A stretch of 20,743 nucleotides of DNA, taken from the IMG/VR virus record IMGVR_UViG_3300034095_000859, positions 1-20,743 of that record; one strand, written 5' to 3'. The translations under genes were made by a program, and so were the position numbers. Each line of letters begins with the position of its first letter. Within the stretch, counting starts at the first letter, position 1. The DNA is from a virus. Shown one piece after another: positions 2,565 to 19,679 of this stretch. The notes beneath the pieces were generated by a model that was not told the origin of the DNA, did no database searches, and saw nothing but the letters and a program-made list of their open reading frames with translations.

Positions 2565-3699
2565 TTTTATAAAATTATCGAAAACAATAGATAGTGAAAA
2601 TCCAAAAATTTCACAAATTAACTATTCAGATTGCGTTCAGTTATTACCCAGCGAATCATATTTACAAATAAGTAACAACGCTGACGGCATAGCATTTGAC
2701 AATGACTTTGCTGTCTTTGTTGTTGATTGTGATAATACGGAATTAGCAGATATAACCACAAATGTATCAATATTTGAATTTACTGATATTAAAGGGATTC
2801 AACAAATAGCTTTTGAATTAAATTTTCTTACTGTTGACTTTGGATTTGAGCCTGTTAGGTTAAAATTTGTTAAGACAACTGGATCAGATATTTGGTATTC
2901 AAATGAAATATTAATAACTGAAGAAGCTGAAGAACAAACAACACGTTTTGACTATAAAGCAAACGGATATTTTCACGGAATTTCTTATGATGTTTTAGAC
3001 TTTTATCAATCAATTAGGTTAAGATGCTTTTTTGACCGTTTAGACAATGAAACGGAAGTAAAAGACTACTATCAGATAAGCAAAGGTAATACAATCAGTA
3101 CAAGGGCTTTATTTAAAGAATTAAGCCAGTATAAATTTGTAAATATAAATCCTTTTGTATTTAGAAGGATAAATATATTATTAATTCACGATATTATTTA
3201 TATTGATGGATTGAGAATGACTAATAAAACAAATGTAAAAGGGTCGGAACGCTTAGGCTATTCTAATTTATCAGAAGCTGAATTTTCTGCATACATAAAC
3301 AACAGCGACCCTTTTAATTTTGATTATCAAATTTACGAAGGTTTAAAAATTACAGAAAATAATCCAGTTGGGCAAATAAGTTTATATGCGTTTTTTAATG
3401 AAATTTCATTTTCTTTGAATAAACCAGTAACATTAAATCCAATAGCATCACTAATAAATTTAAAAGATGGTGATGGAAATATTTTATTTTCTTTTAATTA
3501 TTTAGATTTAACATTTGACGGTGTTTATTATAACATAGATTCAAGCGCATTTACACCAGCAATTGGAAGTTATACGGTTGAAATTCCAAAAGGCTTATTT
3601 TCTTCAACACTTCAAACAACAGATTTTTATTCGTGGACTTTTAATATTGTTGGTGGTGATTATTCAGATTCAGATTATTCAATAGATTATTTAATATAA
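2554..3699 (+). CDS. Virion structural protein, probably tail
   Basis: A 381-residue protein whose ATG lies 11 bases inside the previous gene, indicating translational coupling. The sequence is acidic and beta-rich, with a segment near residues 60-135 (runs such as VSIFEFTDI and AFELNFLTV) that resembles Ig-like or jelly-roll folds of phage tail proteins. It has no membrane segment or enzyme motif. It sits between a large tail-like protein and a likely fibre gene, so it probably belongs to the distal tail or fibre attachment. This role rests on context; I do not recognise a named family. Confidence 0.55.
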   Translation: MDYSFIKLSKTIDSENPKISQINYSDCVQLLPSESYLQISNNADGIAFDNDFAVFVVDCDNTELADITTNVSIFEFTDIKGIQQIAFELNFLTVDFGFEPVRLKFVKTTGSDIWYSNEILITEEAEEQTTRFDYKANGYFHGISYDVLDFYQSIRLRCFFDRLDNETEVKDYYQISKGNTISTRALFKELSQYKFVNINPFVFRRINILLIHDIIYIDGLRMTNKTNVKGSERLGYSNLSEAEFSAYINNSDPFNFDYQIYEGLKITENNPVGQISLYAFFNEISFSLNKPVTLNPIASLINLKDGDGNILFSFNYLDLTFDGVYYNIDSSAFTPAIGSYTVEIPKGLFSSTLQTTDFYSWTFNIVGGDYSDSDYSIDYLI

Positions 3700-8616: not shown

Positions 8617-8876
8617 TGGATTATATCAGCATAATAATAGGATCTTTACCAATGATTGGAACAATTGTAGGTATTTATATCAAAATGAACAATGTTATAA
8701 TCCGTCAGGATATGAAAATTGAACATTTAGAAATGAAAATAAATGAAATACAAGTAAATGCCGAAAAATTGAATAATATTCTATTTAAGAAGCTGGAAGA
8801 AATGGATAAGAAAATGGATGATGTAAGAATGCACGCTTTTAGTTGTATTAATTTTAAAACAAATAAAAATGGGTAA
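8616..8876 (+). CDS. One-pass membrane protein with coiled coil, lysis cassette
   Basis: An 86-residue protein with one N-terminal transmembrane segment (about residues 4-23) followed by a charged helix with heptad-like spacing (about 32-72, from IRQDMKIEHLEMKINEIQ to KKLEEMDKKMDDV). An N-terminal anchor with a periplasm-spanning coiled coil matches an i-spanin or accessory holin. No separate lipoprotein partner is visible, so full spanin function is uncertain. The lysozyme start lies 8 bases inside the 3' end, giving coupled translation. It could also be a holin regulator. Confidence 0.55.
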   Translation: MDYISIIIGSLPMIGTIVGIYIKMNNVIIRQDMKIEHLEMKINEIQVNAEKLNNILFKKLEEMDKKMDDVRMHAFSCINFKTNKNG

Positions 8877-9321
8877 AATAAATAAAGATTGTTTATTATT
8901 AATTGCCGAGTTTGAGGGTTTATCTTTAAAACCTTACCTTTGTCAAGCTAAAAAAGCTACAATAGGTTATGGTAATACCTATTATAAAGATGGTAAAAAG
9001 GTTACAATGTTAGATAATCCAATAAGTAAAGAAGATGCGCTTATATTGCTTGAAAACGTTGTTAATTCATTTGCTAAAGAAGTAAACAAGTTAGTAAGTG
9101 CGCCACTTAATCAAAATCAATTTAATGCGGTTGTATCTTTTGCATATAATGTAGGAATGGGTAACCTAAAAAATAGTACATTATTAAAATTAATTAATAA
9201 GGATCACAATCAAATTGCAATTGCAAACGAGTTTCTAAAATGGGTTAACGCAGGCGGTCAAAAGTCAAAAGGATTAGAACGTAGAAGAATTAAAGAATCA
9301 CAAATTTATTTTAAAAAGTAA
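8869..9321 (+). CDS. Phage endolysin, GH24 (T4-type) lysozyme
   Basis: A 150-residue soluble muramidase that would cut the beta-1,4 bond between N-acetylmuramic acid and N-acetylglucosamine in the host wall. The family active-site pattern E-x8-(D/C)-x5-T is present: E16 in AEFEG, C25, and T31 in ATIGYG. The downstream FNAVVSFAYNVG segment (about 85-96) and the closing WVNAGGQKSKGLERRR segment are also typical of the family. The length is normal. There is no signal peptide or SAR segment, so export depends on a holin; the two small membrane proteins just upstream fit that. The second triad position is Cys rather than the Asp of T4 lysozyme. Confidence 0.92.
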   Translation: MGKINKDCLLLIAEFEGLSLKPYLCQAKKATIGYGNTYYKDGKKVTMLDNPISKEDALILLENVVNSFAKEVNKLVSAPLNQNQFNAVVSFAYNVGMGNLKNSTLLKLINKDHNQIAIANEFLKWVNAGGQKSKGLERRRIKESQIYFKK

Positions 9322-9325
9322 CAAA

Positions 9326-9487
9326 ATGGAAAAAAAAGATTTGATTAATTTAGCATTAAAAGAAGTAGCTATTAAATATAGCGAAAGCCCAGCAACAACA
9401 AACGCTGGAAGGTGGTTGAGGTTAATTGTAAAGTATTTACCGACTGATTTAATTATTAAGGCTTTTGCACATAAACTATCAAGATAA
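9326..9487 (+). CDS. 53-residue protein after the lysozyme, unknown
   Basis: A short ORF (MEKKDLINLALKEVAIKYSE through AFAHKLSR) that begins 4 bases after the lysozyme stop, with an A-rich ACAAAATGG start context like its neighbours. It is predicted helical, basic at the C-terminus, and has a moderately hydrophobic patch (RLIVKYLPTDLIIKAFA) that could be an amphipathic helix. It is the last gene before the sRNA promoter and terminator, so it closes the late operon. An accessory lysis role is possible but unsupported. Confidence 0.55.
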   Translation: MEKKDLINLALKEVAIKYSESPATTNAGRWLRLIVKYLPTDLIIKAFAHKLSR

Positions 9488-9492
9488 TTTTT

Positions 9493-9500
9493 TATATTTG
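9493..9500 (+). promoter_or_regulatory. Bacteroidota -7 box, putative sRNA promoter
   Basis: TATATTTG matches the TAnnTTTG -7 consensus exactly. The nearest TTTG upstream (9464-9467) is 25 bp away, longer than the usual 17-23, so the -33 element is weak. It faces a short foldable region that ends in a terminator and contains no credible ORF. Confidence 0.5.
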
Positions 9501-9503
9501 CAA

Positions 9504-9581
9504 CAGTCCCCAACTATTCAATAGCATTAGTGCTGGACTTTAAAAAAAATAACCTTGTAATTAATTTTGCAAGGTTTTTTT
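9504..9581 (+). ncRNA. Putative phage small RNA, about 75 nt
   Basis: The region lies between a TAnnTTTG box and an intrinsic terminator and has no plausible gene. AGTCC (9505-9509) pairs with GGACT (9535-9539). Inside this stem, CTAT/ATAG (9514-9517 with 9521-9524) and AGCA/TGCT (9523-9526 with 9531-9534) form two alternative short hairpins that share two bases. An A-rich linker leads to the terminator hairpin at 9551-9576. The domain therefore folds compactly before a terminator, as many bacterial sRNAs do. I do not recognise a known RNA family; the transcript itself is inference. Confidence 0.4.
9551..9581 (+). terminator. Intrinsic terminator of the late operon and sRNA
   Basis: A seven-base-pair stem AACCTTG (9551-9557) with CAAGGTT (9570-9576), a 12-nt loop and a run of seven T from 9575. 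An A-run precedes it, so it could also stop transcription from the other strand. Confidence 0.8.
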
Positions 9582-9593
9582 ATGCAATAGCGT

Positions 9594-9620
9594 GTAATTA
9601 AATTTAATTACTTATATTTG
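9594..9620 (+). promoter_or_regulatory. Promoter of the HTH gene with perfect 18-bp operator
   Basis: GTAATTAAATTTAATTAC (9594-9611) is a perfect palindrome and is followed after one base by TATATTTG (9613-9620), an exact TAnnTTTG -7 box. The HTH start is 28 bases downstream. The -33 side has no clean TTTG. Three near-identical palindromes occur at the same place in other promoters of this window, so this is a real operator type and probably the binding site of the HTH protein itself. Confidence 0.75.
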
Positions 9621-9647: not shown

Positions 9648-9815
9648 ATGAATAAAAAATTAAAAGAACTATTTATTAAATCAGGCTTAACAAAAGCCGA
9701 GTTTTCCCGAAAGTGCGGAATTAAAAAACAGAATCTTAATCCGTATTTAACCGATTTGTACGAAATGAAATTATCAACTTTCGAAAAAATAAAAAAGAAT
9801 TATTTGCGTAATTAA
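9648..9815 (+). CDS. Cro-like HTH regulator, 55 residues
   Basis: A short protein (MNKKLKELFIKSGLTKAEFS onward) carrying a lambda-repressor-type helix-turn-helix at about residues 14-36 (LTKAEFSRKCGIKKQNLNPY), with little beyond it, as in minimal Cro proteins. It has no peptidase or oligomerisation domain. The ATG is chosen because an earlier ATG at 9643 runs straight into a stop. The gene lies between two copies of an 18-bp palindrome; its own TAA at 9813-9815 is inside the second copy. It is therefore the leading candidate for the repressor that acts at the four palindromic promoters, including its own. Binding is inferred. Confidence 0.8.
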   Translation: MNKKLKELFIKSGLTKAEFSRKCGIKKQNLNPYLTDLYEMKLSTFEKIKKNYLRN

Positions 9816-9864
9816 ATTTTATTACACTATCTTTGACAAATATTAATACAAAAACAAAACAAAC
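9800..9864 (+). repeat. Duplicated promoter-leader, copy 1
   Basis: Bases 9800-9825 are identical to 14031-14056. After a short divergent stretch, both copies continue with TTTGACAAATATTAATA (9832-9848 and 14062-14078) and an A/C-rich leader of AAAACAAAACAAA type up to the ATG. The copies differ only in the -7 region and a few leader bases. Confidence 0.8.
9803..9835 (+). promoter_or_regulatory. Promoter of the early/recombination operon with operator
   Basis: TTTG at 9803-9806 (-33), 21 bp spacer, TATCTTTG at 9828-9835 (-7). The palindrome GTAATTAAATTTTATTAC (9808-9825) fills the spacer, so a bound protein would block RNA polymerase. The HTH gene stop codon lies inside it. Confidence 0.8.
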
Positions 9865-12002: not shown

Positions 12003-12340
12003 AAAGAATAGCTAAAACAAATAGAATCGGTTTGACTGTTGGTAAAGAATATAAAATTATTGATGATAAATTTAATGATGAATATTATCATACAACAGAT
12101 GGTTTTATGTTATTAAAAGAAAATTTAAACCATTATTTTGAACCTGAACCAAAACAGAAAAAAGACAAAGTAGTAACACAAGTATTAAATAAGTTCAAAG
12201 AACGCTCTAAAATAGGAATTAAGAAGTACGGTACAACTTTACACGAAAATAATACAGACGACTTTTTAAATCACTTACAAGAGGAGTTAATGGATGCGAT
12301 TTTATACTTACAAAAACTTAAAAACAATGGAAACAAATAA
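11999..12340 (+). CDS. Two-part protein with MazG-like C-terminal helices
   Basis: A 113-residue protein. Residues 5-48 look like a small beta-barrel (GLTVGKEYKIIDD, then GFMLLKENLNHYF). The linker EPKQKKDK leads to a helical domain (about 58-108) with KYGTTLHENNTDDFLNHLQE and an EELMD acidic motif near 95-99. This half resembles the small phage MazG-like/diphosphohydrolase-associated proteins (KYG...EExxD). It overlaps the previous gene by 4 bases and the next by 14. A nucleotide-pool or sensor role is a family-based suggestion. Confidence 0.5.
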   Translation: MKRIAKTNRIGLTVGKEYKIIDDKFNDEYYHTTDGFMLLKENLNHYFEPEPKQKKDKVVTQVLNKFKERSKIGIKKYGTTLHENNTDDFLNHLQEELMDAILYLQKLKNNGNK

Positions 12341-14030: not shown

Positions 14031-14095
14031 TTATTTGCGTAATTAAATTTTATTACTTAAATTTGACAAATATTAATAACAAAACAAAACAAAAA
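14031..14095 (+). repeat. Duplicated promoter-leader, copy 2
   Basis: Second copy of the promoter-leader at 9800-9864. The first 26 bases are identical and the leader is nearly so. It lies in front of a different operon, which suggests duplication by recombination of a regulatory module. Confidence 0.8.
14034..14065 (+). promoter_or_regulatory. Promoter of helicase-methylase operon with operator
   Basis: TTTG at 14034-14037, 20 bp spacer, TAAATTTG at 14058-14065. The palindrome GTAATTAAATTTTATTAC (14039-14056) is identical to the copy at 9808. A leader of 30 bases rich in A and C leads to the first ATG. Confidence 0.85.
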
Positions 14096-19450: not shown

Positions 19451-19657
19451 ATGAAATTAGCCGATAAAATAGAATTATTTAAAAAAAACAATCCTGACAG
19501 ATTAGAGCATACCTTTAAAAATGGTTTAATATTCAAAGGAAGCGGAAATTATAGGTTGCATTGGTGGATTGATAGCCTTTATAAAGATGCTGTAAATGAG
19601 TGGAATACAAAAAAAGAAAAAAATATTGCAAATTTTTTAGAAAAATGTATTGCGTAA
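19451..19657 (+). CDS. Small protein ending inside an operator, unknown
   Basis: A 68-residue basic protein (MKLADKIELFKKNNPDRLEH onward) that begins directly after the resolvase stop. It has a central GSGNYRLHWWIDSLYKDA with conserved-looking Trp residues, and no known motif. Its stop codon (19655-19657) is inside the fourth operator palindrome, so binding of the repressor there would also touch the end of this gene. Function unknown. Confidence 0.6.
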   Translation: MKLADKIELFKKNNPDRLEHTFKNGLIFKGSGNYRLHWWIDSLYKDAVNEWNTKKEKNIANFLEKCIA

Positions 19658-19679
19658 TTAAAATTTATTACGATATTTG
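19649..19679 (+). promoter_or_regulatory. Promoter of the last small-gene operon with operator
   Basis: ATTG at 19649-19652, a 19 bp spacer and GATATTTG at 19672-19679 (one mismatch to TAnnTTTG). The palindrome GTAATTAAAATTTATTAC (19654-19671) fills the spacer. The first ATG is 31 bases downstream, after an A/C-rich leader. Confidence 0.75.

Follow-up and report, generated by a model that had tools for sequence, protein, structure and literature searches.

A phage-borne RNA hairpin related to RNAs beside Abi_2 toxin genes: a candidate mimic of AbiF antitoxin RNA

Introduction

AbiF is a toxin family that has been proposed as the ancestor of Cas13. The AbiF RNA of C. difficile, RCd22, binds AbiF directly and thereby neutralises it, both in cis and in trans, according to the accessible part of the report (PMC12373285), and PDB entry 8vz6, an Abi family protein, is described in the accessible text of its source as PbAbiF with the antitoxin RNA AbiFr (PMC12737573). 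Mimicry of antitoxins by phage RNAs has few known cases, namely pseudo-ToxI and, for CRISPR, the RNA anti-CRISPRs (Racrs). Here we describe a small-RNA unit in a virus record of Bacteroidota-phage type (IMG/VR record IMGVR_UViG_3300034095_000859; its 20,743 bases are the window throughout). The unit occupies positions 9493-9583 and consists of a TATATTTG box, a spacer of 4 nucleotides (nt), a 35-nt hairpin closed by AGTCC/GGACT and a terminator; the hairpin is referred to below as cassette D. We consider it quite probable that the phage carries an AbiF-antitoxin RNA as an orphan and that this RNA, by mimicry, blocks abortive infection.

Results

Loose patterns run over viral contigs yielded a second true copy of the hairpin, L114, identical to the window at 40 of 44 bases. 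It belongs to a phage that is not among the relatives of the window defined by its endolysin or its 53-amino acid (aa) protein, and there the hairpin follows a lysis-type gene group, lacks a TAnnTTTG box and is separated by about 20 nt from the terminator after it. One of 39 pattern matches and one of 19 were kept, L114 on both occasions, and of two others L281 was rejected. The exact 35-mer of the hairpin had no match in viral contigs, the exact-type pattern none in genome_contigs, and the pattern with up to 3 mismatches none in 397 Flavobacteriaceae genomes; its sequence has diverged beyond what patterns can detect, and only a covariance model found the copies in host chromosomes.

This model, R1, was built from two sequences only, the window hairpin and L114, and was scanned over 395 Flavobacteriales genomes, with E-values that are per genome and roughly calibrated. 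Matches at E <= 2e-5 were found in 6 of the 395 genomes, against about 0.01 expected by chance; at E <= 0.1 there were 18, against about 40 expected by chance. Five of the six strong matches (L282, L284, L285, L286 and L287) lie on the strand of an Abi_2 gene, 23-65 nt 3' of its stop codon, and show the box-hairpin-terminator layout of the window; the five genes are identified as Abi_2 by PF07751 at E 4e-39 to 6e-44, and carry the PADLOC label AbiD. The sixth (L283/L330) stands at the end of a prophage tail region encoding tape measure, baseplate hub and tail proteins, so that the D RNA occurs without an adjacent toxin in three phages, each time at the 3' end of the late gene region and before a terminator. 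Besides these six, the matches read were L288 and L289, and the ten weaker ones have E 0.005 to 0.08. A weak orphan D-like RNA, L288 (E 1.3e-3; region L331), lies beside a helix-turn-helix (HTH) regulator and a DNA methyltransferase, with no adjoining Abi_2 gene seen, and was kept as such in the alignment described below. Match L289 (E 1.5e-3) was dropped, since it lies within coding sequence and has no outer stem, and matches in crAss-like phages (E 0.3), first taken as D, were rejected because the AGTCC/GGACT stem is absent.

The position of the window hairpin directly before a terminator, and the lack of a box of its own in the L114 copy, are what would be expected of a 3'-untranslated hairpin whose role is limited to stabilising the late mRNA or aiding termination, its likeness to Abi_2-linked RNAs being due to chance. 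Against this stand the five of six strong chromosomal matches directly 3' of Abi_2 genes and the fact that the corresponding slot is empty in 7 of 25 relatives (see below), and we regard such a role as extremely unlikely.

The same association was approached from the other side by an independent search for Abi_2 in 249 Flavobacteriaceae genomes. Abi_2 genes were present in 29 of them, and 27 loci were read (the fragments L326-L328 were not included in the reading). Six of the 27 (L321-L325 and L329, L323 being the L287 locus) belong to the D-linked clade, and all six have a TAnnTTTG box, a hairpin and a terminator downstream; R1 confirms three of these RNAs (E 3.7e-12, 8.2e-11 and 8.2e-7), and the other three, which are diverged, were assigned by visual inspection. 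When 30 Abi_2 proteins were placed in a tree, with L300 and L310 left out, the 11 D-linked proteins split from the 19 others with a branch support of 1.000. The L287 Abi_2 protein is matched by PDB 8vz6 at 2.4e-22. None of five phage records, the window included, contains an Abi_2 gene, though these records may be fragments.

Nine sequences (the window, L114 and L282-L288) were brought together in alignment A4, in which 88.9% of cells are paired; this is the best of 7 registers, every slid register being much worse. Both sides have changed in 6 of the 11 pairs, against a mean of 2.1 after shuffling, and none of 500 shuffles was as high. At the fourth outer pair the two free-phage copies have C-G where the seven copies from bacterial genomes have G-C, a compensatory swap. 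Seven Abi_2-adjacent RNAs share 23 invariant positions, of which 20 are retained in the window, and the three changed positions comprise the two sides of the compensated pair and a third in the loop.

A preliminary description of the window, made from its sequence alone, had suggested a small RNA acting on host or phage mRNAs. The small RNA itself is borne out, the arrangement of promoter, hairpin and terminator recurring in all seven host copies; action on mRNAs is not, because the family adjoins Abi_2 genes and RCd22 binds the toxin protein (PMC12373285, accessible part). A base-pairing regulatory RNA would share the layout of promoter, hairpin and terminator, but would not be expected to belong to a family of covarying hairpins that adjoin Abi_2 genes, and the main target of RCd22 is given as the AbiF protein in the same accessible text (PMC12373285); we judge this explanation very improbable, no search for mRNA targets having been made.

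The surroundings of cassette D were compared by gathering 31 endolysin loci and 32 loci of the 53-aa protein and reading the sequence 3' of the stop codon. A comparable slot, running from the last lysis-region gene to the terminator, is present in 25 of the 32 53-aa-protein loci (L037-L061); of the remaining loci, L062 and L063 lead directly into a gene, a different short unit occupies L064, and L065-L068 are distant. Typed by reading the sequence, the 25 slots hold cassette A alone (12), cassette B alone (2: L041, L050), B plus A (1: L048), C plus A (1: L061) or a C-like hairpin (1: L046); 7 are empty, L038 ending at the terminator, and 1 (L054) is interrupted by a gene. The cassette D hairpin is in none of the 25, and the box is likewise absent from the slot of close relatives without that hairpin. 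Since the window terminator after cassette D is identical, letter for letter, to that of L037, which has no cassette, D plus its box looks like an insertion of ~50 bases.

More distant phages (L035, L036 and L064) carry other units of box, short RNA and terminator (TATATTTGCAGAGGTAGTTTTCC..., TATATTTGAATTCCACGTG...) 3' of lysis-region genes, and these match none of cassettes A-D. By eye, tRNA-like genes are seen just 3' of the operator promoter in L008/L044/L047 and L049, in the slot promoter-HTH interval, and after cassettes C and A in L054, near 2960-3060.

Cassette B was modelled (R3) from four phage copies. R3 finds matches 5' of genes from the other Abi_2 clade (L316 at 1.7e-9, L309 at 4.1e-6, and a series from 3e-4 to 0.1), and RF03085 matches L301 and L303, also upstream of the other Abi_2 clade. 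Genome-wide, R3 matches are mostly at chance level, with 26 of 386 genomes at E <= 0.1 against about 39 expected, so the link between cassette B and Abi_2 rests on the Abi_2 loci.

Cassette A is a covarying hairpin represented by 13 distinct sequences, of the type GATTNNGGTGTC...GGTCGA, and is found before terminators in other Flavobacterium-type phages also. In phage contig L187, at about 12287-12323, it lies directly behind a TATCTTTG box, in the same layout as D in the window. A DUF3800 gene with a convergent hairpin, GGATTNNGGTGTCCNNGGTCGA, at a gap of 36-62 nt was found at 15 of 23 genome_contigs loci (within L220-L238), and type I restriction genes flank cassette A/DUF3800 in the three neighbourhoods examined. 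The cassette is sparse (4 of 101 Flavobacterium genomes), and none of 12 DUF3800-type cassette A loci has a Rfam match. The DUF3800-linked RNA families reportedly come from a 2017 study of 224 candidate RNAs. They are known families by their Rfam names, as far as the accessible part of PMC11701678 goes, and are described as putative non-coding RNAs in that of PMC10910872. A search of the window for GATTNNGGTGTC with up to 1 mismatch gave no match, so D is not of the cassette A type; a pairing of D with DUF3800 was dropped, its homologues adjoining Abi_2 and not DUF3800.

Cassette C is a near-perfect hairpin, AAAGTGGTC-NAATTN-GACCACTTT, seen in phages L018 (5035), L024 (2284), L054 (2931) and L061 (2668; all script offsets). 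Its motif occurs in 5 of 140 Flavobacterium genomes, and at the one chromosome locus read (L332, 1500-1523) it follows an unrelated gene.

Because cassette B matches the RNA of a second Abi_2 clade and cassette A a DUF3800-linked hairpin, the slot looks as if it served as a bay in which antidote RNAs can replace one another. It is tempting to suggest, with the odds in our estimation evenly balanced, that it is a dedicated bay whose contents, RNAs that partner at least three groups of host toxins (two Abi_2 clades and DUF3800), are swapped by the phages, singly or paired, tuning which abortive-infection systems can be ignored, and that DUF3800 plus hairpin is itself a protein-RNA toxin-antidote defence.

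The exchange of cassettes also bears on whether the window RNA is a remnant, left without present function from an ancestral phage that had a whole AbiF toxin-RNA module for defence against superinfection. Whole AbiF modules do occur in prophages, on the accessible evidence of PMC12373285, and the window record holds the RNA alone. Yet solitary copies are found in three seemingly unrelated phages, each at the 3' end of the late gene region, with structure and host-invariant positions preserved, and in relatives the slot is taken instead by cassettes that belong with other toxin families; a remnant is therefore unlikely.

Coordinates are collected in Table 1. Reading 5' to 3', cassette D runs AGTCC-CCA-ACTATT-loop-ATTAGT-GCT-GGACT. 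The preliminary description was right about the exact -7 box and the clear terminator, both of which are present, and about the absence of a gene inside: no open reading frame (ORF) of at least 20 aa lies wholly within 9488-9590, the only overlapping ones being an antisense frame of 71 aa and a GTG frame of 23 aa. Its two alternative AGTCC/GGACT hairpins reduce to one dominant fold. The Rfam search that it proposed, run over the window, gave no match at the gathering threshold, and at E <= 10 only sub-threshold ones of E 1 and weaker. It had also seen an operator-like sequence in the terminator loop; relatives whose terminators have other stems keep a similar AT-rich loop, which therefore looks like terminator sequence. 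The terminator itself is probably bidirectional, because a U-tract is present on both strands.

Table 1. Features of the small-RNA unit and its neighbours in the window
Feature	Position	Strand	Basis
Endolysin gene	8869-9321		PHROG match 4.6e-49
53-aa ORF, last gene before slot, 3' of endolysin gene	9326-9487	+	32 relatives in viral contigs
TATATTTG, Bacteroidota-type -7 promoter box of RNA gene	9493-9500	+	sequence and comparison with host copies
Cassette D hairpin, candidate orphan AbiF-antitoxin-like RNA	9505-9539	+	covariance model matches in host chromosomes, pair counts
Cassette D outer stem	9505-9509/9535-9539	+	
Cassette D 3x3 internal loop CCA/GCT	between outer and inner stems	+	
Cassette D inner stem, one mismatch	9513-9518/9526-9531	+	
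Cassette D 7-nt loop	9519-9525	+	
Predicted mature RNA, about 75-80 nt	9505-9583	+	start inferred from box
Intrinsic terminator of RNA and of late/lysis operon	9551-9583	+	10-pair stem 9551-9576 plus U-tract
Small HTH regulator	9648-9815		PHROG regulator match, E 2e-4

The folding energy of 9501-9583 has a z of -4.8, with 0 of 200 shuffles as good. The terminator reaches z -5.5 and the 5' hairpin alone z -1.8 to -2.6, and since the terminator supplies most of the signal, folding energy alone is no proof of an RNA; support for the 5' hairpin comes from the comparison with other sequences.

TAnnTTTG occurs 21 times on the + strand of the window, which gives a chance of ~0.9% that a box ends 4-12 nt before a given point, or about 0.13% for exact TATATTTG at that spacing; calculated from noncoding stretches only (5 in 722 bases), the chance of a box is about 6%. 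In all seven Abi_2-adjacent host copies a TAnnTTTG box precedes the hairpin by 8-12 nt and a terminator lies nearby; in the window the spacing is 4 nt. Promoters of this kind have a -33 TTG at a consensus spacing, and four of the seven host copies have it at the usual distance.

An operator-like palindrome, GTAATTAAATTTAATTAC, is found with 0-2 mismatches at 9594-9611, 9808-9825, 14039-14056 and 19654-19671 (4 sites against 0.28 expected), none of them in the terminator loop, and the first three have a TAnnTTTG box a few bases 3'. The small HTH protein probably controls these sites as its regulon.

Discussion

Flavobacteriia keep an RNA gene (TAnnTTTG box, hairpin, terminator) just 3' of the toxin gene of one Abi_2 (AbiD/AbiF) clade, and by analogy with the studied AbiF systems this RNA would bind the HEPN RNase and keep it inactive. 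Synthesis of the phage RNA would take place late in infection, both from the box that belongs to it and through readthrough out of the lysis operon. Once transcription in the host declines and the cell loses its own antidote, the phage RNA would bind AbiF in its place, and a cell whose AbiF is so held would not abort the infection. An orphan RNA of this family on a phage is therefore most simply explained as a putative antidote against host abortive infection, as with pseudo-ToxI versus ToxIN.

Several observations weigh against an anti-AbiF role. Expression of the window RNA and its binding to AbiF are predictions, and the 20.7-kb record may be a fragment, so that a toxin gene could lie elsewhere. 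The R1 E-values come from a shortened calibration. Rfam abiF (RF03085, cut-off 37 bits) is over its cut-off in none of nine records (the window, the L114 phage and seven bacterial genomes); as it misses window and host copies alike, the D RNA lies outside the described abiF family. No TTG lies 17-23 nt upstream of the window box, the nearest being at 25 nt, and the box itself is absent in phage copies L114 and L283 and in orphan L288. Finally, the inner stem of the window has a mismatch, and one loop base differs that is otherwise host-invariant.

The window RNA is a concrete candidate for a phage RNA against AbiF, and swapped hairpins between late-operon stop codons and terminators offer a route by which more such RNAs may be sought. 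DUF3800 proteins, with linked RNAs of unproven role, are suggested to belong to defence, and this is made testable. A literature search, with most subscription papers outside its reach, found no report of a phage RNA against AbiF, nor of the D family or the slot. A region of phage sk1 reportedly protects against AbiF, to go by the title of an older lactococcal report, and may be related.

Compared with known systems, and within the accessible parts of the sources, RCd22, PbAbiF-AbiFr and RF03085 share with cassette D a small structured hairpin RNA beside an Abi_2 HEPN protein, neutralisation being by direct binding in the studied cases. Unlike these, the window RNA has no adjacent toxin gene and is unmatched by RF03085, and its host homologues lie 3' of a different Abi_2 clade. 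Cyanophage S-CREM1 also has an abiF-type RNA in its genome, and three bacteriophage genomes in Rfam are mentioned with it; that RNA was detected by RF03085, is not linked to AbiF neutralisation in the accessible text, and belongs to a different RNA family (PMC9964418). Pseudo-ToxI of phage PhiTE, as described in the available part of PMC3475682, is likewise a phage RNA resembling a host antitoxin and gives escape from abortive infection by mimicry, but its toxin is ToxN, of the type III system ToxIN, and repeat expansion is required in wild-type PhiTE, whereas the window RNA is a single complete hairpin in a cassette slot, for Abi_2/AbiF-type toxins, with escape as a prediction. The Racrs, in the available part of PMC10651486, are similarly solitary small RNAs encoded by phages and mimicking an RNA of host defence; they mimic CRISPR repeats, whereas the model for the window RNA is a toxin-associated hairpin.
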